From IMG/VR virus record IMGVR_UViG_3300011115_000148, positions 1 through 40,944 of that record: a DNA stretch of 40,944 bases; one strand, 5' to 3'. Shown here in pieces: positions 1 through 40,944 of the stretch. Source of the DNA: a virus. The translations under genes and the position numbers were made by a program. Below the pieces are notes generated by a model. It ran no database searches. It had not been told where the DNA came from and saw only the letters and a list, made by a program, of their open reading frames with translations. Numbering within the stretch: the stretch's first letter is position 1; every line of letters starts with the position of its first letter.

Positions 1-469
1 AGGCTTTAGCCCATCCCTCTTTGGAGTCTTTAACATTAATGACAGTGCCACTATTGTAGAGATCAACTGGAATCTCAGGTAACTTAGATACATACTTTTG
101 CTCCACACTAAAGCCTACACCAGTTCCGCATAACAGAATATACATAGCCTCATCAAAGGCTTTGGGATCATCAATGGGTAGGTATGAGCAGTTATAACCT
201 GCAATGTTCTGACGCTCCAAGGCATCACCAGCTGTCATGATGCTACGCATTGATGGCATCACTTCTAAGTTAGTTACTGCAGATCGAAGTTCCGATTTTA
301 GATTTGCAGGAATAGTGTAATTATGCTTCTCTTGCAAGTGCTTGGTCATGAAGTCAAAGTAGCGGTTCACAGTCTCAGGCCAGTGCTCTCTACGGCCTTT
401 ATCATCCAAGTAGCGAGAGTAGCGACTCTTGCCAATGTATTCTTGGTATGGTGTCATAGTTGTTGTCAT
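1..469 (-). CDS. nrdJ: Class II (B12-dependent) ribonucleotide reductase, N-terminal part, cut by the window start
   Basis: This is the first 156 codons of the reductase that is complete at 36441-38345. It begins MTTTMTPYQEYIGKSRY and contains the NCSY segment whose cysteine matches one of the redox-active pair in the family. It differs from copy B mainly around residues 46-60 (LQEKHNYTIPANLKSE against LKDKHDYTLTQPLRDE). The start ATG (469-467) overlaps by one base the TAA of the upstream 52-codon gene (TAATG), so translation is probably coupled. The C-terminus lies outside this copy. Confidence 0.93.
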   Translation of the reverse strand, partial: MTTTMTPYQEYIGKSRYSRYLDDKGRREHWPETVNRYFDFMTKHLQEKHNYTIPANLKSELRSAVTNLEVMPSMRSIMTAGDALERQNIAGYNCSYLPIDDPKAFDEAMYILLCGTGVGFSVEQKYVSKLPEIPVDLYNSGTVINVKDSKEGWAKA

Positions 470-627
470 TAGTCTAGTTCCTTTATTAAATATTCTTGTT
501 TTTTCTCAATCACATCATCAAATCTTTCGACAAGATCATCACTCTGGATTCCTAACAGTTCCAAGAGTGAGACCTCATCCAAACGCTTGAGAGCCTCTTT
601 CAGTTCTTCAAAGGTTATGTTTAGCAC
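469..627 (-). CDS. Conserved 52-aa acidic phage protein, GTG start
   Basis: I do not recognise a function. The frame runs from GTG at 627-625 to a TAA that overlaps the reductase ATG, and codes for a small acidic helical protein (ITFEELKEALKRLDEV at its start, ending KEYLIKEL-like). It overlaps the end of the DUF3310 gene by 20 bases. The strain copy at 38347-38505 keeps the same GTG start, the same length and the same stop, with changes that are silent or conservative (S/T, I/L, E/D). This is good evidence that the frame is translated even though it is short. It probably belongs to the same translational unit as DUF3310 and the reductase. Confidence 0.75.
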   Translation of the reverse strand: MLNITFEELKEALKRLDEVSLLELLGIQSDDLVERFDDVIEKKQEYLIKELD

Positions 628-1033
628 GTTTCTCAATCTCACGTTCAATGTACCATTTAGCCTTCTTCAGGTCTTCAATGGCATCTTGCTTAAGGTCACA
701 TCTCCAGATGTACTTGATTGCATTACCTAAGTTAAAACCCATGTGCTCTGTAACTTGGATACATTCAATACCTGAGGGATGTGCAGTGTAGTGAGGAGGT
801 TTATTAACTATATCTCTCATTTGTTTAAAGAACTTACCAACCTCTTTTACTTCTTTATTATCATCATCCTTGCAGTCAACCCACTCTTTAATGGCTTCAC
901 TAAGTGGTTTTGCTGCTTCTCTTATGTAGAGGTTACGATTAACCCACTTATCATAATTAGTGCAATCATTACAAGGATGAATACCACTGTCTAATTCACT
1001 ATAAAAACAAGTACTACATTCAATCGCTGCCAT
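608..1033 (-). CDS. DUF3310 protein with N-terminal zinc-ribbon-like segment
   Basis: The C-terminal half (from about residue 80) has the DUF3310 signature: NKPPHYTAHPSGIECIQV, then GNAIKYIWRCD and DAIEDLKKAKWYIEREI. The family is common next to replication genes of podoviruses and has no established biochemical role that I can name. The N-terminus adds two Cys pairs (C6/C9 and C21/C24) that could bind a metal; this is inference. The linker at residues 51-78 is variable: the strain copy at 38486-38866 lacks 15 codons here. The end overlaps the 52-aa gene, and the start overlaps the metallophosphoesterase end by 14 bases. Confidence 0.85.
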   Translation of the reverse strand: MAAIECSTCFYSELDSGIHPCNDCTNYDKWVNRNLYIREAAKPLSEAIKEWVDCKDDDNKEVKEVGKFFKQMRDIVNKPPHYTAHPSGIECIQVTEHMGFNLGNAIKYIWRCDLKQDAIEDLKKAKWYIEREIEKRAKHNL

Positions 1034-1793
1034 ATTTCCTCCCTAAGTATTCTACGCTTAAGAACATTTCATCGAAGTGTCCATCCTGTACTTCATTCAT
1101 CATCAGTAAGCCCCTCCAGTGTCTATTGCTTAGTTGATCCATATAACTTTCATCGTGGAGATAATAAGACCCAACGATGATAGCACAAATAGGCTTCCCA
1201 TCAGCCCTCTTACCGTATGCAATCTGCTTTCCTTGTTGATGTCCAGCAACACAAGACATATGAAGCTTGTTAATAATAGCACTAGCAGCCCCTGCGGGTC
1301 GTCCCATAGCCCCCACAGGCCAGTAATGATTAAACCCCACCCCATTAATGAATACAGGATGAAGGAAACCGTGTACTTCCCAATCTTTTTCATACTCAAG
1401 ATCCTTTGTAGATATTAAGCCTTCCAGTGTAGGATTATTGTTAATAGCCCTATCAATACGGTTCTCATGGTTCCCTAAAGTCATCACCATACGAGGCTTG
1501 TACACCTTGTGCTTAGATGACTTCTGAGACTTCTGAAGTTCCTTCAAAGGTGCTAAGAGAAGCTTCATGGCCTCCTTAGTAGCTTCAACGTCCTTCTTGT
1601 AGCGTAGACCTTCAAAGTACTTACTACCCTTGATGTCGTGAGTGCTAAGGCTTGGCATATCTGCAAAGTCACCTATGTTAATCACTACATCAGGTTTGTA
1701 ATCGACAATGGCCTTACCAGCCCATGTCAGGTGCTCTAAAGGTACACCCTCTTTAATCTGACAGTCCGGGATTACTAGGATCTTCAATGTCAT
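1020..1793 (-). CDS. Calcineurin-like metallophosphoesterase
   Basis: The 257-aa protein carries the metal-binding blocks of the calcineurin-like phosphoesterase fold in order: PDCQ at 9-12 (Gln in the place of the usual DxH histidine, as in many phage members), GDFAD at 41-45, GNHE at 107-110, a histidine at 156 and GHQ at 184-186. A role in phosphodiester or phosphomonoester hydrolysis during phage DNA or nucleotide metabolism is likely; the substrate cannot be read from the sequence. The ATG at 1793 lies directly behind AGAAGGAG, which is too close to be an ideal ribosome site, so coupling to the overlapping upstream gene (41 bases shared) is likely. Confidence 0.88.
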   Translation of the reverse strand: MTLKILVIPDCQIKEGVPLEHLTWAGKAIVDYKPDVVINIGDFADMPSLSTHDIKGSKYFEGLRYKKDVEATKEAMKLLLAPLKELQKSQKSSKHKVYKPRMVMTLGNHENRIDRAINNNPTLEGLISTKDLEYEKDWEVHGFLHPVFINGVGFNHYWPVGAMGRPAGAASAIINKLHMSCVAGHQQGKQIAYGKRADGKPICAIIVGSYYLHDESYMDQLSNRHWRGLLMMNEVQDGHFDEMFLSVEYLGRKYGSD

Positions 1794-1947
1794 CTCCTTC
1801 TACTGTTAGTCTATCACCTTCACGTATACCAGCTTTGATGGATTCTAGGATACCAAAGGTAAGAAGTGATTGAGCTTCATCAGCTGTAAGGTCAAACTGA
1901 TATGTTGCATCACCATTCTCATGCTCTTTAATCAGATTCACGTTCAT
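1753..1947 (-). CDS. Conserved small phage protein (64 aa)
   Basis: It begins MNVNLIKEHENGDATYQFDL, a pattern I recognise from small genes in the replication region of many podoviruses; no function is known to me. It is acidic, with no membrane segment. The strain copy at 39586-39780 has the same length and 5'-end, with changes concentrated in residues 25-45. Both ends overlap neighbouring genes (20 bases with the upstream gene, 41 with the phosphoesterase), typical of a tightly coupled operon. Confidence 0.75.
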   Translation of the reverse strand: MNVNLIKEHENGDATYQFDLTADEAQSLLTFGILESIKAGIREGDRLTVEGDDIEDPSNPGLSD

Positions 1948-2191
1948 TTTCAGCCTCTTTCAAGAACTCCTGAGCATCACCAGTGTACATGAAGTAACCT
2001 AAGACAATACCAATGGCTGCATTGACTTTCTTGTTCTCAGCAATGTCCTCAGGATGAGAACTCCAACCACCATTGATAGTATTCAAGTAGGTTTCTTTAA
2101 GTTTCTCCACAAGAATAACATCTGTAAAGTCTTCCCATACACTGCGAAGTTCTTTAGACTTTTCTAAAGCTTCAATTAGATTAGCTAACAT
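1928..2191 (-). CDS. Hypothetical 87-aa phage protein
   Basis: No function recognised. The protein is helical and acidic (LANLIEALEKSKELRSVWED at the N-terminus). Two in-frame ATG codons exist at 2197 and 2191. I choose 2191 because the strain copy at 39761-40024 keeps only that one (the first is ATA there) and because AGAGG lies nine bases upstream of it. The gene follows the endonuclease I gene with virtually no gap. Confidence 0.7.
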   Translation of the reverse strand: MLANLIEALEKSKELRSVWEDFTDVILVEKLKETYLNTINGGWSSHPEDIAENKKVNAAIGIVLGYFMYTGDAQEFLKEAENERESD

Positions 2192-2193
2192 AA

Positions 2194-2622
2194 TCATTTA
2201 CCTCTCTTTTCATTTAACCATGACATAGGAATATCTTTATCGGCATATTGGAATCCATGCTTGTTGCACCAATCCCCGTATGTAGTTTGGCTTACCTTTG
2301 AGAGTTTAGATTTAGAGTTACTGAAGACAAATCTAATATCAAGTTCAGGATGTTGTTCCTTCACCATCAAATGTTTCTGTCTATCAGCAGTCATGAACCT
2401 GCCCTTGCTCTCAATGATAATACCATTCTTAAGTAGAAGGAAGTCAGGAGTGTATGTACGTTTCTTCTCAGGCTGCGTATATCCAATGATTAACTTCTCA
2501 TACTCAAATGGAACTTCTAAGGCTTTCAATCTCTCAGCTATCTTGTCTTCTAAACCTGACCTAAAACCATGCTTCAAAGCTACTTGTCTAACTGTCAGTG
2601 GCTTCTTACGCTTCGGCTTCAT
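2194..2622 (-). CDS. Endonuclease I, T7 gp3-type Holliday junction resolvase
   Basis: The protein matches the T7 endonuclease I family over its whole length (142 aa from the chosen start; T7 has 149). It has FRSGLEDKIAERL with the catalytic Glu at 25, YTPDFLL with Asp 60, and IESKG with Glu 71 and Lys 73, followed by the KHLMVKEQHPELDIRFVFSNS block. It resolves branched DNA and helps degrade host DNA and process replication intermediates. I start at ATG 2622 (MKPKRKKPLTVRQ), preceded by AAGGAG, rather than 42 bases upstream. Both strains share this Met, and the upstream extension differs between them. It overlaps the metalloprotease-like gene by 17 bases. Confidence 0.93.
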   Translation of the reverse strand: MKPKRKKPLTVRQVALKHGFRSGLEDKIAERLKALEVPFEYEKLIIGYTQPEKKRTYTPDFLLLKNGIIIESKGRFMTADRQKHLMVKEQHPELDIRFVFSNSKSKLSKVSQTTYGDWCNKHGFQYADKDIPMSWLNEKRGK

Positions 2623-2908
2623 GGTACTCCTTAGTGATCTGATACTGGTGCAAGAAAGCTCCAAAGGTATCTACAAACTCTTCTTCGTGGTTTAGCTTAC
2701 CCATTGTGAACAAGATGGCATGAACTAACTCATGGTAGAAGGTTTGCTCAGTAGACTGCTTATTCATTCCTGTACGTATGCTAATGGTTTGCTTCTCAGG
2801 ATCACATTTACCCATGTCTTCCATGTGATCTGCATAGACTACGTTCCAGACTGATCCTGCAAGCTCGAAGGTGGTTGCCACATCTGGTTTGCTTTTCTTC
2901 TTAGCCAT
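2606..2908 (-). CDS. Small HExxH zinc metallopeptidase-like protein
   Basis: The 100-aa protein has FYHELVHAI with the zinc-binding H59-E60-x-x-H63 motif, and an acidic EEEFVDTFG segment downstream that could supply the third ligand, as in compact ImmA/SprT-like folds. A peptidase activity is inferred from the motif only; no partner or substrate is visible. It lies between the exonuclease and endonuclease I genes. Its first 70 bases overlap the exonuclease end in another frame, and the strain copy at 40445-40741 keeps this overlap. Confidence 0.8.
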   Translation of the reverse strand: MAKKKSKPDVATTFELAGSVWNVVYADHMEDMGKCDPEKQTISIRTGMNKQSTEQTFYHELVHAILFTMGKLNHEEEFVDTFGAFLHQYQITKEYHEAEA

Positions 2909-3549
2909 AGGAGCTTACCGTTTTCCAGTACCCTGTCAGTATTGCCGTCATAAGCTTTGATACAAGCTGCATATAATTCCTCTTCGGTTGTACAGTCTTT
3001 GAGAATCTTATCAGCCTTTACAGGGCCAATACCTCGTATACCTTCAATGTTATCAACTCTGTCACCTGTCAGTATCTGTTTGTAGAAACTGTACAAGCCT
3101 TCAAACTCAGTAACATAATACTCCTCATCCTTTACAGGATTATAGTGCCACCCCGGTAACTGATCTAGATCCTTGTCAACGTGGACGATCCAGTAGTTAC
3201 CTTCAGTGGACGCTATGCCTACAGAGTCATCAGCCTCCTCGTTCTCAGACACCTTAGCACCGAGCTTCATGAGATGTTTGCGAAGAGCCTCATAGTGTAT
3301 AGGCTTGGGAGCATCCTTACGATTGCCCTTGTAAGGAACAGTGGTAGCTACCTCGAATCTAAAGTTAGTTTTACCTGTAATCCATGCTCTGTAGTCATCA
3401 CACTTCAGACGCATATAGATGATGTCGGTAAACCACTCTGTGAGTCGATTTAGTGCCCACTGTTCTTCTTCAGCTTCATTGGAGAAGCCAACTTTATAAA
3501 CTAAAAAGTCAGCATCTACAATAGCCTCAGTAGGCTTGTCAGAGGACAT
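2839..3549 (-). CDS. 5'-3' exonuclease, T7 gp6/FEN-like
   Basis: The protein shows the FEN-type nuclease blocks: AIVDADFLVYKVGF near the N-terminus, ENEEADDSVG in the middle, VDKDLDQLPGWHYNP, and GDRVDNIEGIRGIGPVKA (the helix-hairpin-helix region that follows the metal site). It removes RNA primers and resects DNA 5' ends during phage replication and recombination. I start at ATG 3549 (MSSDKPTEAIVDAD), which overlaps the stop of the ssDNA-binding protein gene, giving 236 aa. A longer frame starting at 3576 is open but would overlap the upstream gene further. The last 70 bases double as the metalloprotease-like gene start. Confidence 0.9.
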   Translation of the reverse strand: MSSDKPTEAIVDADFLVYKVGFSNEAEEEQWALNRLTEWFTDIIYMRLKCDDYRAWITGKTNFRFEVATTVPYKGNRKDAPKPIHYEALRKHLMKLGAKVSENEEADDSVGIASTEGNYWIVHVDKDLDQLPGWHYNPVKDEEYYVTEFEGLYSFYKQILTGDRVDNIEGIRGIGPVKADKILKDCTTEEELYAACIKAYDGNTDRVLENGKLLWLRRKANQMWQPPSSLQDQSGT

Positions 3550-11470: not shown

Positions 11471-12340
11471 TCAATGCATGGCGATGATAATGGGCACGCC
11501 CTTCAAAGCTTGCATACCGCATGCATGGCCCTTGCCAGTACATGTACCGCACGTGCCCGGACATGGGAAAGCTTTGCCCGTGAATGCTTGTCTTAAAGCT
11601 TTGACGGTTTCCGGCTTACCGTGATCACTTGAATGAACTTTTTTACCGATACGAACGGCAATAAATTCACCCCTAGTTATAGACAATGCTTTAACCGTTT
11701 TTACTGTATCAATGCTTGAATTGTGGCCACCGGATATATTGAGCACGTAATTAGACGGTAATTCACCCTCATATGACATAATTTGATTGAAGCTTTTTGA
11801 ATAACCGTAAACCCTTGCATTAGGTACGGTTTTAATTAGATTGAACCAAAATTTAACGTCATTGTCGCTGCTAAAATCACCGTCAACGTATAGACGCACG
11901 TCATATTGTGAACCTTTAAACGATGCATCTACAATGTGCAAAGCTTTAACGATAGAATCGGGAGCATAGCGCATTAGGTATGCATTCTGCGCTTGTCTCA
12001 TGAAAGCCGCTGGGTAACGCCATGCACGAAAGCTATAGCAAAAATCTAAGCATTCACCCGCTCCCGGACATGTCACACCAGGCAAGCTTGAAAACGACAC
12101 AAACGGCAACTTAGAATTACCGTTTAAAGAAAATACACTATATGATGGATCTAAGGTTTTAAACGTATGCTCAAGCTTAGCAAAATTATCTTGCCAACCT
12201 TTTCCGGTGAACATGCTAGAAGCTTGCAAGCCCTTCAAAGCTTCTAATGCGCTTTGCTTCGTGCCACCTTGAATAGCTATTGCAAGCCCTTGCAAAGCTT
12301 TGAATTTTTGAGCACTATTTGAGAACAGTTTAATTTGCAT
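11471..12340 (-). CDS. GP88-family phage protein with two cysteine clusters
   Basis: The 289-aa protein resembles the phage GP88 domain family (unknown function). It has a central GVTCPGAGECLDFCYSFRAW block (C91, C97, C101) and a second cluster FPCPGTCGTCTGKGHACG near the end (C260, C264, C267, C274). The cluster spacing suggests metal or iron-sulfur binding, which is inference. The CPG...C..CY block with conserved aromatic residues is the family signature as I know it. It is the largest gene of the early-left cluster. Its codons show frequent AAAGCTT-type words unlike its neighbours further left. Confidence 0.75.
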   Translation of the reverse strand: MQIKLFSNSAQKFKALQGLAIAIQGGTKQSALEALKGLQASSMFTGKGWQDNFAKLEHTFKTLDPSYSVFSLNGNSKLPFVSFSSLPGVTCPGAGECLDFCYSFRAWRYPAAFMRQAQNAYLMRYAPDSIVKALHIVDASFKGSQYDVRLYVDGDFSSDNDVKFWFNLIKTVPNARVYGYSKSFNQIMSYEGELPSNYVLNISGGHNSSIDTVKTVKALSITRGEFIAVRIGKKVHSSDHGKPETVKALRQAFTGKAFPCPGTCGTCTGKGHACGMQALKGVPIIIAMH

Positions 12341-12357
12341 GGTGATATATCCCTAGT

Positions 12358-12453
12358 TTATTTTGTGAGCACGTCAAAGTATGCAAGCAAGCCCATGCAC
12401 AAGCATAAGCCGATTGCAATTGCAAGTATGATATCTAAGCATTTATCTAGCAT
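12358..12453 (-). CDS. Single-helix membrane peptide (31 aa)
   Basis: The frame MLDKCLDIILAIAIGLCLCM then GLLAYFDVLTK is one long hydrophobic helix with a short charged start. AAGGG lies six bases upstream of the ATG. It sits between the 51-aa gene and the GP88-like gene in the first part of the leftward operon. Small membrane peptides in such positions sometimes act on the host; this one is unassigned. Confidence 0.55.
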   Translation of the reverse strand: MLDKCLDIILAIAIGLCLCMGLLAYFDVLTK

Positions 12454-12462
12454 GTTGATCCC

Positions 12463-12618
12463 TTAATTAATACTGTAAAACGCTTGACTAAAATCTACAA
12501 TGATATAATTGCCAAAACCGTCGTCGGCATACATTGTGAACCAGTCGGCAAGTATCAGTAAACCCCCAAAACCTTTGATTGTGTCTAGTGTTTTGCTTGC
12601 ATCATGTAAGTGTGTCAT
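12463..12618 (-). CDS. First gene of the leftward operon, hypothetical 51 aa
   Basis: The frame reads MTHLHDASKTLDTIKGFGGL and continues LILADWFTMYADDGFGNYII. AAAGGG precedes the ATG at seven bases. No function recognised. It is the gene nearest to the divergent control region, so it is probably among the first made after infection. Confidence 0.6.
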   Translation of the reverse strand: MTHLHDASKTLDTIKGFGGLLILADWFTMYADDGFGNYIIVDFSQAFYSIN

Positions 12619-12729
12619 ATATAAACCCTTTGGTTTGTTGTTGCGATGGATAGAGTATCAAGCTTGAACCTTACACGAACCTTACAAACTATAAATATTT
12701 TAAACTTTAAACCCTTACGTAAAAACCCT

Positions 12730-12816
12730 ATGTCTTACCGTACTTTTATGTCTTATATAAGAGTACTCTCATGTCTTATATATAAGTACTCTTATGTCTT
12801 ATATAAGACTACAATA
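12730..12816. repeat. Iteron-like repeat array, units of ATGTCTTATATAAG
   Basis: Units begin at 12730, 12748, 12771 and 12794 (spacing 18, 23, 23 bases). The core CTTATATAAG is a perfect 10-bp palindrome at 12752-12761 and 12798-12807, and a 12-bp one (CTTATATATAAG) at 12775-12786. Between units lies AGAGTACTCT, another palindrome (12760-12769), or a close form. Spacing near two helical turns suggests cooperative protein binding on one DNA face. Confidence 0.75.
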
Positions 12817-12852
12817 ACCTTATGCTTTGAAGGGCTTTTTAGTGCTGCTACC

Positions 12853-12899
12853 GTGGCAAGGCCACTTAAGGGTTAACCCTGTGTTGCTTTAAAACAACA
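12853..12899. repeat. Three adjacent short palindromes
   Basis: In 47 bases there are GTGGC-AAG-GCCAC (12853-12865), AGGGTTAACCCT (12869-12880, perfect 12-bp palindrome) and TGTTG-(8)-CAACA (12882-12899). They can form three hairpins in a row on either strand, in the leader of neither annotated gene. They may be regulatory or part of an origin. Confidence 0.5.
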
Positions 12900-12923
12900 T
12901 CAGAGGATCCTACATCGTCCCTC

Positions 12924-12955
12924 ACACTGTCAAATTAACGACACTACACTGTCAA
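12924..12955 (-). repeat. Direct repeat TTGACAGTGT, 22-base period
   Basis: On the minus strand TTGACAGTGT occurs at 12955-12946 and 12933-12924. Each contains a perfect -35 hexamer facing the leftward operon, but no good -10 box stands 16-18 bases downstream. They may be repressor sites or part of an activator-dependent leftward early promoter. Confidence 0.4.
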
Positions 12956-12981
12956 TATTCCGACACCCTTCAGAGTTGCTA

Positions 12982-13080
12982 GTGAGTACTTACTAACTTA
13001 AACTAATAAGTACACTTATGACTTTGAAGTGAGCACTTACTAACTTCAGAGTGCCTGCAATGTAAGTGAATACTTACTTC
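12982..13080. repeat. Repeats of GTGAGTACTTACTAACTT
   Basis: Copies lie at 12982-12999 and 13029-13046 (17 of 18 bases equal, spaced 47 bases), with a degenerate third copy GTGAATACTTACTTC at 13066-13080. The third includes the inverted repeat GTAAGT-GAAT-ACTTAC (13063-13078). The GAGTACTT core resembles the AGTACT palindromes in the ATGTCTTA arrays. Likely protein-binding sites. Confidence 0.55.
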
Positions 13081-13338
13081 ATAGGGGGGGAGGGTCATCG
13101 TAGCTATGATTACTATTGCAGGAGCCTCTGAAGTACACAAAAAAGTAAAACTAAAAAGGACTAATTAGGGACAGATGAAGTAACCATAAGTACTTGATTT
13201 ATAAAGTAAAAGTAGTGTAGACTACAAAGTATCTAAAATGTAGGCAATGTACACCTTAGCAAGGGAACTACAAAGTAAACATATATGTGACTGGAATCAC
13301 AAGAAAGAAGAAATATATGTGTACTAGACAATAAAAGC

Positions 13339-13367
13339 TTGACAAATAGACAAAAGTATGATACAAT
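13339..13367 (+). promoter_or_regulatory. Strong sigma70 promoter for the late block
   Basis: TTGACA (13339-13344), a 17-base spacer and TACAAT (13362-13367) match the host sigma70 consensus in 11 of 12 positions. Transcription would start near 13374 and run through a long 5' leader of about 245 bases into the terminase genes. The leader contains CTACTAAG/CTAAGTAGG and CCCTAGTAGGG inverted repeats. Confidence 0.8.
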
Positions 13368-13567
13368 ATTCTTCATAGCAAATAACTATGTTTACTAAGT
13401 AGCCTGACCCCACTACTAAGTTAAGACTAAGTAGGCTGATATGCACACCCTAGTAGGGGAACATAGTAGTTAAAACACACTTAGATTTAATTTAAGTAAT
13501 AACTTACTAAGTAAATTAATAATAATTACTTATAATGTTATGTCTATATAACTTAAACATAATGTCT

Positions 13568-13585
13568 TAGTACTATATAGTACTA
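13568..13585. repeat. 18-bp perfect palindrome upstream of the terminase genes
   Basis: TAGTACTATATAGTACTA is a perfect palindrome 35 bases before the small terminase ATG. It directly follows ATGTCTTA (13562), the same word that starts each unit of the array at 12730, and another ATGTCTATATAA lies 22 bases upstream at 13540. It looks like the rightward end of a shared operator set. Confidence 0.6.
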
Positions 13586-13619
13586 TACTTAAAAGTCTCC
13601 CTATATAGGACAAAGACGC

Positions 13620-14009
13620 ATGGAAACTAAAGAAGATACTGTCAGTGTTGGTATGTCGCCCAAACTGCGTGGTAAGGGCAGACCTCCAAAGACTGACCTT
13701 CAAGCTGTTAAGAACAGAACTAAGAATAAGGTAGGTAGACCTGTAGGTGATGCAGGTAGACTTCAAGAGTTCAAGGAGAGGTTACTAGCCACAGGTGGTA
13801 CTAGAATCCTTGATAAGATGATTCAGATAGCCTTGGATGATGAACACCCGGGACAGATGGCAGCAATTAAGTTAGCAATGGATAGGATATTACCAGCATC
13901 AGTGTTTGATACAGCTAAGAGTGGTGGTAGTATGCCTCAGATCAGTATTAACATTAGTGGCCTTAATAGTCCTATTGTGTCTACCAACGATGACGTTATT
14001 GATGTATGA
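13620..14009 (+). CDS. Terminase small subunit (putative)
   Basis: This 129-aa protein is directly upstream of, and overlaps by four bases (ATGA), the terminase large subunit gene. It has a basic, disordered N-terminus (SPKLRGKGRPPKTDLQAVKN, with a GRPPK AT-hook-like patch) and a helical core (LLATGGTRILDKMIQIALDD, MAAIKLAMDRILP). This fits a DNA-recognising small terminase, which picks the packaging site and loads the large subunit. The assignment rests on position and layout; sequence similarity alone is weak. Confidence 0.7.
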   Translation: METKEDTVSVGMSPKLRGKGRPPKTDLQAVKNRTKNKVGRPVGDAGRLQEFKERLLATGGTRILDKMIQIALDDEHPGQMAAIKLAMDRILPASVFDTAKSGGSMPQISINISGLNSPIVSTNDDVIDV

Positions 14010-17903: not shown

Positions 17904-17932
17904 TTGACAAAGTGTTGTTTTTATGCTATAAT
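17904..17932 (+). promoter_or_regulatory. Perfect sigma70 promoter
   Basis: TTGACA (17904-17909), 17 bases and TATAAT (17927-17932) match the consensus in all 12 positions. It lies directly after the portal stop and would drive the 77-aa gene, zinc-ribbon, scaffold and capsid genes until the terminator at 20251. A strong extra promoter here suits the high demand for capsid protein. Confidence 0.88.
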
Positions 17933-17936
17933 AACA

Positions 17937-17946
17937 CTTATATAAG
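17937..17946. promoter_or_regulatory. CTTATATAAG palindrome at the transcription start (candidate operator)
   Basis: This perfect 10-bp palindrome starts five bases after the -10 box, so it covers the expected start site near 17939. The identical word forms the core of the array at 12730-12816. A protein bound here would block or time the capsid promoter. Confidence 0.6.
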
Positions 17947-36444: not shown

Positions 36445-38345
36445 ATCTCACACGCACCAGCGGTACACGCTAGTGTCTGAGCACCTTCAACATTGTCAGT
36501 GCCTTCAACCAGTTTGTCCCAATCAATACCAGCTGGCATAGCAGCAACCATTGCATGATACTCTTCCTCAGTCATGGACTCATAAGGAGCTTGTCGGTAT
36601 GTTCCACCATCCATAGGTAGGAAACTCACACCTGTAATCTCATCAAAGTTATTCCACACCCAAGCTCCAACTTCAGGCCACTCATTCTCATTCACTGAAA
36701 TAGTCACTGAAGGCTTATGCTCACAGTAGTGACGCTGGAACAATAACCACAGTTTCAAGTGTTGGATAGCATTCAAGTCTTCACGCAGTACAGCACCCTT
36801 CTCAACTCGCATGGGAAAGCTAAAGATAGTAGTGCTATCAGGCTTCATCACACACAGCTCAGACGGGAACCCTTGCTCTTTCAAGAATGCAGTCAGAGGG
36901 TCTTTGTTATCAGAGCGTACCCTACGAATAAAGTACTGACTGTGCTGAGGGTGGATGCCACTAGCAGTGCCTGTAAGCTGAGAGACAGTGCCCTCTGGCT
37001 TAATGGCAGTAATGGCAGCACTACGATTAATACCGATAGCGTCAGCAAACTCAGCGTTAGTGTCAATAGCAACATTCTTCATTCCTTCCAAGATGGCAGG
37101 TAGTTCAGCATTATCAGGATTATTCAATAAAGCATTGTCCAAGATACCCGTCATGGACACACCAAGCAAACGCTCATCTTCAGTGTTTGTCTGCCACACC
37201 TTACGAAGGTAAGGAAAGTAAGTCATCGTCGATTGAAAAGTCCCCAGAATAGTAGCCAAGCGCACTTTATTCCGTAGAGTATCCACACTATCATCGCTCC
37301 TGACAATAACAGAAGACAGATTACAAAATTGATAAGGTCTAAGGATAATCTCACTGCAAGGGTTTGTACCCCACTCTTTACCCAATTCCCTACGTCCACT
37401 CTTAGCTGCTTGAAGTTCACTTGCATAACGATTAAAGATGCCTCGCTCTCCAGAATGTGATTCATAAATACTTGACCACTCACGCATGAACTTACCTACC
37501 TCAGGCTTCACTTCGTAGATGGCACTGTTGTTAGCCAAGGCACGTTGACCATTACCGTCCCACCAGTTGCCAGCTTTAGCATGAGCCATACGGTCATCGC
37601 CCAAGTCTGACAAAGAGATCATTGCAGATCTACGAACCCCACCGACAACAACTACCTCTCCCACCTTGCAGAGGATGTCATGCGCTTCAAGCGAAGTGAG
37701 CTTACGGCCCGTTGCCCCTTTGAATTTAGCAGTGACGTAGTGAAATAAGGATACAAGGGGTTCCGGCCCTGATGCTCTACCACCAAAAGTTTTAAGTCTC
37801 GCACCTGCTGGACGTACTCCTGAGACATCCCACTTTGGAATCTCACCTGCATATAGCAAGGCAATGACTTGTCGTAAGGCTTTAGCCCATCCCTCTTTGG
37901 AGTCTTTAACATTAATGACAGTGCCACTATTGTAGAGATCAACTGGAATCTCAGGTAACTTAGATACATACTTTTGCTCCACACTAAAGCCTACACCAGT
38001 TCCACACAGGAGAATGTACATAGCCTCATCAAAGGCTTTAGGATCATCAATGGGTAGGTATGAACAGTTATAACCAGCAATGTTCTGACGCTCCAAAGCA
38101 TCACCAGCTGTCATGATGCTTCGCATTGATGGCATCACTTCTAAGTTAGTCACAGCAGACTGCAGCTCATCACGTAGTGGCTGTGTCAGTGTGTAGTCAT
38201 GCTTATCTTTCAAGTGCTTGGTCATGAAGTCAAAGTAGCGATTAACAGTCTCAGGCCAGTGCTCTCTACGGCCTTTATCATCCAAGTAGCGAGAGTAACG
38301 GCTCTTGCCAATGTATTCTTGGTATGGTGTCATAGTTGTTGTCAT
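36441..38345 (-). CDS. nrdJ: Adenosylcobalamin-dependent ribonucleotide reductase, monomeric class II
   Basis: The 634-aa enzyme converts ribonucleotides to deoxyribonucleotides using coenzyme B12. By comparison with the Lactobacillus leichmannii enzyme the key residues are all present: redox pair C94 and C341, thiyl radical cysteine C330 within TNPCSEI (N328, E332), and the C-terminal shuttle pair C627 and C632 (ACTAGACEI). NPCSEI has Ser in place of the usual Gly. It needs no second subunit and no oxygen, but depends on host or environmental cobalamin. It supplies dNTPs to the phage replisome. The start is 1-2 bases after the 52-aa gene stop in this strain copy. Confidence 0.95.
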   Translation of the reverse strand: MTTTMTPYQEYIGKSRYSRYLDDKGRREHWPETVNRYFDFMTKHLKDKHDYTLTQPLRDELQSAVTNLEVMPSMRSIMTAGDALERQNIAGYNCSYLPIDDPKAFDEAMYILLCGTGVGFSVEQKYVSKLPEIPVDLYNSGTVINVKDSKEGWAKALRQVIALLYAGEIPKWDVSGVRPAGARLKTFGGRASGPEPLVSLFHYVTAKFKGATGRKLTSLEAHDILCKVGEVVVVGGVRRSAMISLSDLGDDRMAHAKAGNWWDGNGQRALANNSAIYEVKPEVGKFMREWSSIYESHSGERGIFNRYASELQAAKSGRRELGKEWGTNPCSEIILRPYQFCNLSSVIVRSDDSVDTLRNKVRLATILGTFQSTMTYFPYLRKVWQTNTEDERLLGVSMTGILDNALLNNPDNAELPAILEGMKNVAIDTNAEFADAIGINRSAAITAIKPEGTVSQLTGTASGIHPQHSQYFIRRVRSDNKDPLTAFLKEQGFPSELCVMKPDSTTIFSFPMRVEKGAVLREDLNAIQHLKLWLLFQRHYCEHKPSVTISVNENEWPEVGAWVWNNFDEITGVSFLPMDGGTYRQAPYESMTEEEYHAMVAAMPAGIDWDKLVEGTDNVEGAQTLACTAGACEI

Positions 38346-38346
38346 A

Positions 38347-38505
38347 TTATTCTAGTTCCTTTATTAAATATTCTTGTTTCTTTTCAATTACATCATCAAA
38401 TCTATCGACAAGGTCATCACTCTGGAGTCCTAGCAGTTCCAAGAGTGTGACCTCATCCAAACGCTTGAGAGCCTCTTTCAGTTCTTCAAATGTTATTGCG
38501 TTCAC
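38347..38505 (-). CDS. Conserved 52-aa acidic protein, strain copy B
   Basis: Second version of the gene at 469-627, again with a GTG start (38505), 52 codons and TAA just before the reductase ATG. The product starts MNAITFEELKEALKRLDEVT, with Thr, Leu and Asp replacing Ser, Ile and Glu at matching places. Preservation of frame and length across the two strains supports a real gene. Confidence 0.75.
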   Translation of the reverse strand: MNAITFEELKEALKRLDEVTLLELLGLQSDDLVDRFDDVIEKKQEYLIKELE

Positions 38506-38866
38506 GTTTACTGATCTCTCTGTCAATGTACCACTTAGCCTTCTTCAGGTCTTCAATGGCATCTAGCTTAAGGTCACAACGCCAGATATATTTGATTGCA
38601 TTACCTAAGTTAAAGCCCATGTGCTCAGTAACTTGGATACATTCAATACCTGATGGATGCTCAGTGTAGTGCTTAGGTTGATTAACTACATCTACTTCAT
38701 CTTTGCAGTCAACCCACTCTTTAATGGCTTCACTTAGGGGTTTAGAAGCTTCCTGAATATAAATGCTACGGTTGACCCACTTGTCATAACCTTCACAGTC
38801 ATTGCAGGGATGTATTTTACCGTCTAGTTCACTGTAAAAGCAAGTGCTACATGATTTAAGATCCAT
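38486..38866 (-). CDS. DUF3310 protein, strain copy B
   Basis: This 126-aa version of the gene at 608-1033 keeps both Cys pairs (CSTCFYSELDGKIHPCNDC) and the DUF3310 core (NQPKHYTEHPSGIECIQV, GNAIKYIWRCD). The linker after EWVDCKDE is 15 residues shorter, showing that this part is dispensable or strain-variable. Confidence 0.85.
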   Translation of the reverse strand: MDLKSCSTCFYSELDGKIHPCNDCEGYDKWVNRSIYIQEASKPLSEAIKEWVDCKDEVDVVNQPKHYTEHPSGIECIQVTEHMGFNLGNAIKYIWRCDLKLDAIEDLKKAKWYIDREISKRERNNI

Positions 38867-39626
38867 ATTTCCTCCCTAAGTATTCTACGCTTAAGAACAT
38901 CTCATCGAAGTGTCCATCCTGTACTTCATTCATCATCAGTAAGCCCCTCCAGTGTCTATTGCTTAGTTGATCCATATAACTCTCATCGTGGAGATAGTAA
39001 GAGCCAACGATGATAGCACAAATAGGCTTCCCATCAGCACGCTTACCATAGGCAATCTGTTTACCCTGTTGATGTCCAGCAACACAAGACATATGAAGCT
39101 TGTTAATAATAGCACTAGCAGCACCAGCTGGCCTTCCCATCGCACCAACAGGCCAGTAGTGATTAAAGCCAACACCATTAATGAACACAGGATGAAGAAA
39201 CCCATGTACTTCCCAATCTTTCTCATACTCAAGATCCTTTGTAGATATTAAGCCTTCAAGTGTAGGATTATTGTTAATAGCTCTATCAATCCTGTTCTCA
39301 TGGTTTCCTAGAGTCATCACCATACGAGGCTTGTACACCTTGTGTTTGGATTCCTTCTGAGACTTCTGAAGTTCTCTCAAAGGAGCCAGTAACAACTTCA
39401 TGGCCTCCTTAGCAGATTCAATGTCCTTCTTGTAACGTAGACCTTCAAAGTATTTACTGCCCTTGATGTCGTGAGTGCTAAGGCTTGGCATATCTGCAAA
39501 GTCACCTATGTTAATCACTACATCAGGCTTGTAATCGACAATGGCTTTACCAGCCCATGTCAAGTGCTCTAAAGGTACACCCTCTTTAATCTGACAGTCC
39601 GGGATTACTAAGATTTTCAATATCAT
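38856..39626 (-). CDS. Metallophosphoesterase, strain copy B
   Basis: Nearly identical at protein level to 1020-1793 with all metal-binding blocks kept (PDCQ, GDFAD, GNHE, GHQ). I start at the ATG equivalent to that in copy A; a TTG nine bases upstream is open in this copy. Substitutions are mostly silent, so the protein is under strong purifying selection. Confidence 0.88.
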   Translation of the reverse strand: MILKILVIPDCQIKEGVPLEHLTWAGKAIVDYKPDVVINIGDFADMPSLSTHDIKGSKYFEGLRYKKDIESAKEAMKLLLAPLRELQKSQKESKHKVYKPRMVMTLGNHENRIDRAINNNPTLEGLISTKDLEYEKDWEVHGFLHPVFINGVGFNHYWPVGAMGRPAGAASAIINKLHMSCVAGHQQGKQIAYGKRADGKPICAIIVGSYYLHDESYMDQLSNRHWRGLLMMNEVQDGHFDEMFLSVEYLGRKYGS

Positions 39627-39780
39627 CTCCTTCAACTGTTAGTCTCTCACCTTCACGTATCATAGATTTAAAAGTTTCTAGGATACCGAAGGATATGAGT
39701 GATTGAGCTTCATCGTTAGTTAGGTCAAACTGATAAGTGGCATCACCATTCTCATGTTCTTTAATCAGATTCACGTTCAC
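39586..39780 (-). CDS. Conserved 64-aa protein, strain copy B
   Basis: Counterpart of 1753-1947 with identical start MNVNLIKEHENGDATYQFDL and several changes further on (LISFGILETFKSMIREGERL against LLTFGILESIKAGIREGDRL). Same length and overlaps. Confidence 0.75.
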   Translation of the reverse strand: MNVNLIKEHENGDATYQFDLTNDEAQSLISFGILETFKSMIREGERLTVEGDDIENLSNPGLSD

Positions 39781-40024
39781 TTTCAGCCTCCTTCAAGAAT
39801 TCTTCAGCATCACCAGAAAACATAAAGTATCCTAGTACAACTGCAATGGCTGCATTGACTTTCTTGTTCTCAGCAATGTCTTCAGGATGAGAACTCCAAC
39901 CACCATTGATAGTATTCAGATAGGTTTCTTTAAGTTTCTCCACAAGAATAACATCTGTGAAGTCTTCCCATACACTGCGAAGTTCTTTAGACTTTTCTAA
40001 AGCTTCAATAAGATTAGCTAACAT
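39761..40024 (-). CDS. Hypothetical 87-aa protein, strain copy B
   Basis: Counterpart of 1928-2191. In this copy only the downstream Met codon is present (the upstream one is ATA), which fixes the start in both. Most residues are identical; changes cluster near the C-terminus (VVLGYFMFSGDAEEFL). Confidence 0.72.
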   Translation of the reverse strand: MLANLIEALEKSKELRSVWEDFTDVILVEKLKETYLNTINGGWSSHPEDIAENKKVNAAIAVVLGYFMFSGDAEEFLKEAESERESD

Positions 40025-40026
40025 AA

Positions 40027-40455
40027 TTATCTACCTCTTTTTTCATTTAACCATGACATTGGAATATCTTTATCAGCATACTTGAATCCATGCTTAGTGC
40101 ACCAATCCCCGTATGTAGTTTGGCTTACCTTTGAGAGTTTAGACTTAGAGTTACTGAAGACAAATCTAATATCAAGTTCAGGATGTTGTTCCTTAACCAT
40201 CAAATGCTTCTGTCTATCAGCAGTCACAAACCTACCTTTACTCTCAATGATAATACCGTTACTCAGTAGTAAGAAGTCAGGAGTGTATGTACGTTTCTTC
40301 TCAGGCTGCGTATATGCAATCACTAGCTTCTCATACTCAAATGGAACTTCTAAGGCTTTAAGTCTCTCAGCAATCTTGTCTTCTAAGCCTGACCTGAACC
40401 CATGCTTCAAAGCTACTTGTCTAATTGTCAGTGGCTTCTTACGCTTAGGCTTCAT
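40027..40455 (-). CDS. Endonuclease I, strain copy B
   Basis: Counterpart of 2194-2622 with the same catalytic residues (E25, D60, E71, K73) and the same start MKPKRKKPLTIRQ. The region upstream of this Met is poorly conserved between the copies, supporting the shorter start. Confidence 0.92.
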   Translation of the reverse strand: MKPKRKKPLTIRQVALKHGFRSGLEDKIAERLKALEVPFEYEKLVIAYTQPEKKRTYTPDFLLLSNGIIIESKGRFVTADRQKHLMVKEQHPELDIRFVFSNSKSKLSKVSQTTYGDWCTKHGFKYADKDIPMSWLNEKRGR

Positions 40456-40741
40456 GTGTGACCCTAGTCCTGTGATACTGATGAAGGAAAGCTCCAAAGG
40501 TATCTACAAACTCTTCCTCATGGTTTAGTTTACCCATTGTGAACATAATGGCATGAACTAACTCATGGTAGAAAGTCTGCTCAGTAGACTGCTTATTCAT
40601 GTCTGTACGAATACTAATAGTCTGCTTCTCAGGATCACATTTACCCATGTCTTCCATGTGAGCTACATACATTACATTCCAGACTGAACCTGCAAGACTG
40701 AAGGTGGTTGCCACATCTGGTTTGGTTCCCTTCTTAGCCAT
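40445..40741 (-). CDS. HExxH metallopeptidase-like protein, strain copy B
   Basis: The 98-aa counterpart of 2606-2908, with FYHELVHAI intact. It has GT for KS near residue 5, MYVAH for VYADH, and a different C-terminus (HRTRVTHEA). The 70-base overlap with the exonuclease gene is kept. Confidence 0.8.
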   Translation of the reverse strand: MAKKGTKPDVATTFSLAGSVWNVMYVAHMEDMGKCDPEKQTISIRTDMNKQSTEQTFYHELVHAIMFTMGKLNHEEEFVDTFGAFLHQYHRTRVTHEA

Positions 40742-40944
40742 AGGAGCTTTCCATTTTCCAGTACCCTGTCAGTATTGCTGTCATAAGCCTTGATACAAGC
40801 TTCATATAATTCCTTTTCAGTTGTACAGTTTTTCAAGATCTTATCAGCCTTTACAGGGCCAATACCTCGTATGCCTTCAATGTTATCAACTCTGTCACCT
40901 GTCAGTATCTGTTTATAGAAACTGTACAAGCCTTCAAACTCAGT
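40672..40944 (-). CDS. 5'-3' exonuclease, strain copy B, 5' end beyond the window
   Basis: The last 90 codons of the counterpart of 2839-3549, from TEFEGLYSFYKQILTGDRVD to the stop. The metal-site/HhH block GDRVDNIEGIRGIGPVKA is identical to copy A. The C-terminal tail, which overlaps the metalloprotease-like gene, differs (RREPNQMWQPPSVLQVQSGM). Confidence 0.9.
   Translation of the reverse strand, partial: TEFEGLYSFYKQILTGDRVDNIEGIRGIGPVKADKILKNCTTEKELYEACIKAYDSNTDRVLENGKLLWLRREPNQMWQPPSVLQVQSGM

Follow-up and report, generated by a model that had tools for sequence, protein, structure and literature searches.

Organization of the divergent region

The DNA analysed here (the window) is the whole of the IMG/VR virus record IMGVR_UViG_3300011115_000148, 40,944 bp long. 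The leftward genes carry a T7-like replication set (polA, primase/helicase, ribonucleotide reductase) and the rightward genes code for terminase, portal, capsid and tail. The two ends of the window, 1-3111 and 37877-40944, repeat each other inexactly over about 3 kb at about 90% identity; the genome is probably circular or permuted, about 37.9 kb long and assembled across strain variants. TerL and portal scans of IMG/VR yielded 142 distinct relative loci. No cultured relative was found by DNA in a megablast search with the first 20 kb of the window, and TerL gave only distant matches in the 399 host-order genomes scanned. The phage is probably an uncultured, podovirus-like virus of freshwater Betaproteobacteria.

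On the leftward side of the early/late divergent region (the slot) lie the first leftward ORF, of 51 aa and without family match in the family scan (12463-12618, minus strand), and a gene for a 289-aa protein matching the Pfam GP88 profile (11471-12340, minus strand). The GC skew changes sign at 12-13 kb, at the slot, a pattern that transcription polarity yields as well.

Repeat and motif scans delimited a candidate SdhR-type operator array at 12732-12809 (plus strand; operator from PMC4494728). Three 27-nt copies start at 12740, 12763 and 12786 within 12740-12812, spaced by 23 and 23 bases, and an additional partial unit lies at 12730, which confirms the sequence-only reading of units at 23-base spacing within 12730-12816. 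The array repeats a half-site of 7 bases, (C/G/A)TCTTAT, head to tail and ends in an inverted copy, ATAAGA(C/G); the general build is thus NTCTTAT half-sites in tandem, then ATAAGAN. On the plus strand the motif scan found GTCTTAC at 12732, CTTTTAT/GTCTTAT/ATAAGAG at 12743-12763, CTCTCAT/GTCTTAT at 12766-12779 and CTCTTAT/GTCTTAT/ATAAGAC at 12789-12809. The 10-mer CTTATATAAG marks the point where a direct half-site meets an inverted one; it is lacking in the middle unit, which is degenerate.

In a scan of the whole window CTTATATAAG occurred exactly at 12752, 12798 and 17937 only. Dinucleotide shuffles contained 0.07 copies on average and none of 100 reached three, so the earlier statement that three copies far exceed chance holds.

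Two further elements near the slot were observed. At 12924-12966 there are two ACACTGTCAA...CGACAC repeats, 22 bp apart. At 13084-13097 lies a G-run, GGGGGGGAGGGTC, which is conserved beside the slot in relatives and is also present near arrays in other phages; it is a possible priming site.

Identity and distribution of the array word

For SdhR, a regulator of the GntR family and HutC subfamily, the operator given in a survey of GntR regulators (PMC4494728, citing Suvorova et al. 2012) is TCTTATGTCTTATATAAGACATAAGA, a 26-bp palindrome derived by comparative genomics. Further literature searches on SdhR brought nothing relevant. The array word, TCTTATGTCTTATATAAGA, equals the left 19 bases of the operator as published there. 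The best unit of the window, at 12790-12808 (plus strand), is an exact TCTTATGTCTTATATAAGA and matches this operator at 19/19 left bases and 21/26 overall; the best scores in 8 Markov shuffles were 17-19. Unit 1 (12744-12762, plus strand, TTTTATGTCTTATATAAGA) has 1 mismatch in 19, and unit 2 (12767-12785, plus strand, TCTCATGTCTTATATATAA) is degenerate. Measured against the surveyed operator, the units fit 18-21 of 26 positions, the right outer (fourth) half-site being missing. The core dyad, TCTTATATAAGA, is exact at 12797-12808; in unit 1 it appears as CTTATATAAGAG with a T before it, and 12751-12762 is exact.

A scan of GTDB genomes with TCTTATGTCTTATATAAGA gave at least 120 exact stretches. 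Of the matches listed (80 titles) nearly all were betaproteobacterial; a Mesorhizobium MAG contig of 4 kb was the exception. The commonest neighbours of the word among these matches were a GntR+UTRA regulator and malate dehydrogenase (mdh), on either side of it. Isocitrate lyase (aceA) was next in frequency, and isocitrate dehydrogenase (icd) and aconitase B (acnB) also adjoined it; the word stands before these three genes. Judged from the matches listed, the word and the GntR+UTRA gene are widespread in Betaproteobacteria, the probable host clade of this phage. The match in letters and in genomic company indicates that the array word is very probably the operator of the host regulator SdhR, of GntR/HutC type, which serves TCA-cycle genes.

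The word is also widespread among phages. IMG/VR contained 108 exact stretches of TCTTATGTCTTATATAAGA and one of the reversed word; in the TCTTATGTCTTATATAAGA set two to eight direct half-sites stand before the inverted one. Among 106 phage loci that contain the 19-mer, 40 matched window proteins at 60% or more, 38 matched more distantly and 28 had no match to the proteins tested; part of these 28 carry terminases of other families or an integrase, so that several phage lineages must carry the word. Only 1 of the 106 sites lay inside an ORF of at least 120 aa. The annotated circular genome MW202796.1, from Manatee Spring, has three units at 23-bp spacing at the same divergent position.

In 107 deduplicated contigs (1.21 Mb) CTTATATAAG was counted 56 times, where 1.9 copies were expected. 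The divergent slot accounted for 33 of them (the one in L063 stands further out), the stretch immediately upstream of the terminase gene pair for 11 and the capsid promoter for 12 (including one first binned as "other" because the portal end of its contig was misplaced). The flanks differ by place, slot copies reading TCTTATATAAGA and terminase and capsid copies ACTTATATAAG. The strict 12-mer core TCTTATATAAGA occurred 32 times in the divergent slots of relatives and 0 times in 682 kb elsewhere.

The copy at 17937-17946 begins 5 bases past the -10 box of the capsid promoter (17904-17932), a TTGACA-17-TATAAT sequence with 12/12 matches; the earlier reading of a perfect promoter here, and the coordinates given for its 10-mer, were correct. 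The site reads ACTTATATAAGT, not TCTTATATAAGA, and the palindrome is kept in only 10 of 46 distinct contexts among relatives in which the promoter itself is strongly conserved. The proposed link between array and capsid promoter therefore fails: the 17937 copy falls outside the array system, because its flanks differ from those of the slot and few capsid contexts keep the palindrome. Promoters kept in relatives without the palindrome are what the sequence-only reading had itself named as refuting it.

The sequence-only reading had also pointed to ATGTCT units at 13540 and 13562 as further operators. Both positions are real, but this 6-mer occurs 28 times on the plus strand of the window, so the pair alone adds nothing, and the second unit is one arm of a conserved hairpin of 13 pairs (13564-13618), within which lies the ribosome-binding site of a terminase-region gene (at 13620). 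In 20 sequences the hairpin was 99.6% paired, with one pair seen as A-U, C-G and U-A, and 9 compensatory cells were counted against 3.1 in shuffles; these figures lend modest support to a separate RNA feature.

Upstream of it, after a promoter at 13339-13367, a highly conserved leader (13384-13475) has hairpins of the form CTAAGWAG-CCTGACCCCA-CTWCT and CCCTAGTAGGGG/CCTTGGAAAGGG, with one compensatory pair (9/24). It had no match in the Rfam scans, which gave no family at gathering score. It may serve the late operon as an antitermination or riboregulatory RNA.

Exchange of the slot among related phages

The closest relative, L002 (99% TerL), hardly differs from the window to the left and right of the slot. 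Alignment of the two showed that a cassette with approximate borders 12410-12985 is replaced in L002, which has DnaA boxes, a sigma-54 promoter and two NtrC boxes in place of the array. A sigma-54/NtrC promoter is absent from the window's own cassette.

Slots of 55 distinct but mutually related loci were sorted into classes by motifs chosen after inspection. A1 loci (n=20) have DnaA boxes around a single SdhR dyad. A2 loci (n=13) have DnaA boxes, NtrC-type boxes in 13/13 and a leftward sigma-54 -24/-12 element in 11/13, the NtrC boxes lying 130 and 182 bp upstream wherever the promoter was found. B loci (n=9), the window's type, have the SdhR array, and C loci (n=5) have sigma-54 and three GGCAAATATTGCC-type dyads. 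Eight loci, mostly more distant, were left unclassified.

Eleven A2 loci combine sigma-54 with two NtrC-type boxes (L002, L022, L034, L094, L097, L111, L114, L115, L117, L118 and L127), in a slot 1.1-1.4 kb upstream of TerL. The better box, ATCACCAACATGGTGCA, agrees with 12/14 fixed positions of the E. coli-type NtrC box consensus TGCACCAnnnTGGTGCA (PMC8743547). In its layout this version is much like an enhancer-dependent promoter directed into the leftward operon, and would apparently place the phage early operon under host nitrogen control.

SdhR and NtrC sites occurred together in 0 of 55 slots (Fisher p about 4e-7, a descriptive value only, since the loci are related and the motifs were picked after inspection). 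DnaA boxes were present in the slots of 33/55 relatives; the motif scan found none in the window's slot. Fur-like boxes with at least 15/19 matches were found in 25/55 slots against 0/55 coding controls.

The Fur-like box AATG(A/C)GAATGATTCTCATT is seen in the slots of, for example, L121, L022 and L107, and also near the array in L413. Many slots also have TGTC-N7/8-YGACA dyads, in some cases at the position that a Fur-like box takes in others. In the C loci (L030, L106, L107, L109 and L137) dyads GGCAAATATTGCC/GGTAAATTTTGCC lie about 22 bp apart beside the leftward sigma-54 element. The type-C 15-mer (GGCAAATATTGCC) was present in 8/100 host-order genomes against 0 for its reverse, and a literature search for this word found nothing.

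The A1 composite of DnaA boxes and SdhR dyad was also found in four contigs, 53-84 kb long, in which nothing matched the window proteins. The idea that the array mimics a host oriC was rejected, the DnaA+SdhR composite being present in 0/300 host-order genomes.

On the leftward side of the array, a conserved element, AGGGTTTTTACGTAAGGGTTTAAA (12705-12728, minus strand), lies between it and the leftward genes; it is kept in 7/9 B and 5/20 A1 loci and in no A2 or C locus. The putative leftward early promoter (12654-12686, minus strand) consists of an 11-bp direct repeat, GTAAGGTTC, with GATACT as a possible -10, and is kept in B and some A1 loci. The array lies roughly 85-165 bp upstream of the inferred leftward start and does not overlap this promoter.

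Proposed role of the array and known systems

We propose, with a probability of about 0.55, that the array consists of tandem SdhR operators, that it forms the variable part of a cassette for early control that can be swapped, and that host SdhR would tune the early operon or origin. Given the distance to the inferred promoter, SdhR bound to the array would act from upstream, by looping, by cooperativity or at the origin, instead of covering the promoter. It would thereby set the firing strength of the leftward early/replication operon or of an adjoining origin, and infection would track the host's carbon and energy state. The chances that the cassette ties early-operon or origin firing to host TCA status in this way appear about even. 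Since the sigma-54/NtrC version resembles an enhancer-dependent promoter, the general job of the slot is probably early-operon control, with SdhR as the carbon/energy counterpart.

More tentatively, at somewhat less than even odds, the divergent region may be a docking site for interchangeable host-physiology cassettes, swapped by recombination between near-identical phages: SdhR for carbon and the TCA cycle, NtrC with sigma-54 for nitrogen, often a Fur-like box for iron, and DnaA for the cell cycle. Close relatives would then start infection under different host nutrient states.

The main rival to control in cis is titration of SdhR. The operators of multiplying phage genomes would draw the regulator off mdh, aceA, acnB and icd and raise TCA flux for phage production, and no phage promoter need be controlled. 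The phage has two exact cores per 41 kb plus degenerate ones, against 0-4 exact cores per host-order genome, and arrays of up to eight half-sites occur; titration would also suit sites that almost always avoid ORFs and an array that leaves the inferred promoter uncovered. However, a cis role agrees better with the A1 loci, whose single dyad keeps a constant position among the DnaA boxes, and the cassettes that take the same slot are promoter-type control elements. A search for literature on decoy phages found nothing relevant. On this balance we regard titration as unlikely.

Less probable still is an iteron-type replication origin bound by a phage initiator, to which the likeness with the SdhR operator would be secondary or coincidental. 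Dyads that recur every 23 bp, with AT-rich DNA alongside, fit such an origin; the sequence-only reading had offered it as an alternative, and its position at a GC-skew switch and the DnaA boxes of many relatives agree with it, but the window's own cassette has no such boxes. It leaves unaccounted the 19 bases shared exactly with a host operator, copies of which, among the genome matches listed, are almost all in the likely host clade, and the recurrence of the word in phages with unrelated terminases. Nor was any gene cluster unique to array-bearing phages found. A candidate initiator gene specific to them was likewise rejected, the GP88-like 289-aa gene being present in 6/9 B loci and also in A2 and C loci. 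The earlier proposal of one phage-coded regulator binding CTTATATAAG at the divergent region, the terminase leader and the capsid promoter is highly improbable: three exact 10-mers in 41 kb had suggested it, but most relatives lack the palindrome at the same capsid promoter, L002 keeps it there without having an array, and the flanks of CTTATATAAG differ between sites. The word matches a host operator; no GntR domain was found in the phage, and no regulator among the early proteins scanned. The non-conservation at the capsid promoter and the absence of GntR led us to reject this model. What stands of the sequence-only reading is the operator-like array in a control- or origin-like divergent region and the excess of its word; the single regulator, the capsid link and the operators at 13540 and 13562 do not.

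If the early-control region is indeed assembled from host-regulator sites and swapped whole, the physiological state at which a phage commits itself to infection would be modular and could be read off metagenomic DNA. Phage replication in Betaproteobacteria would then take TCA status (via SdhR) and nitrogen status (via NtrC/sigma-54) as direct inputs. A decoy that drains a TCA regulator of the host would be no less unusual.

Iteron origins of the lambda type are known, as are oriC regions with bound regulators such as ArcA. The slots share with them dyads that repeat at about 21-23 bp next to AT-rich DNA and, in A1 loci, a regulator dyad among DnaA boxes; they differ in that the window's word is a host TCA operator and the origin role is putative. 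The SdhR regulon operators of Betaproteobacteria have the same 19-base word and the same order of half-sites. Host copies adjoin the GntR+UTRA gene and TCA/glyoxylate genes, whereas the phage copy is in tandem at 23-bp spacing, without regulator gene and without the fourth half-site. With E. coli-type NtrC/sigma-54 promoters (PMC8743547) the A2 relatives share TGGCA-N6-TTGC and two boxes like ATCACCAACATGGTGCA, 130 and 182 bp upstream, but the A2 versions sit in phage genomes and adjoin DnaA boxes.

The nearest precedent for phage DNA with sites for a host nutrient regulator is found in marine cyanophages, in which Pho boxes for host PhoB lie at phage promoters (P-SSM2 pstS, S-PM2d) and binding was shown by gel shift (PMC10976474; Zeng and Chisholm 2012). 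That phages borrow host regulators at single genes is therefore already known. Those sites are at individual genes and proven by gel shift, whereas here a tandem array, read from sequence alone, lies in the early/late divergent region and is exchanged for other host-regulator cassettes; a whole early-control region is seemingly built of host-regulator sites and swapped as one block between phages that share 99% TerL identity.
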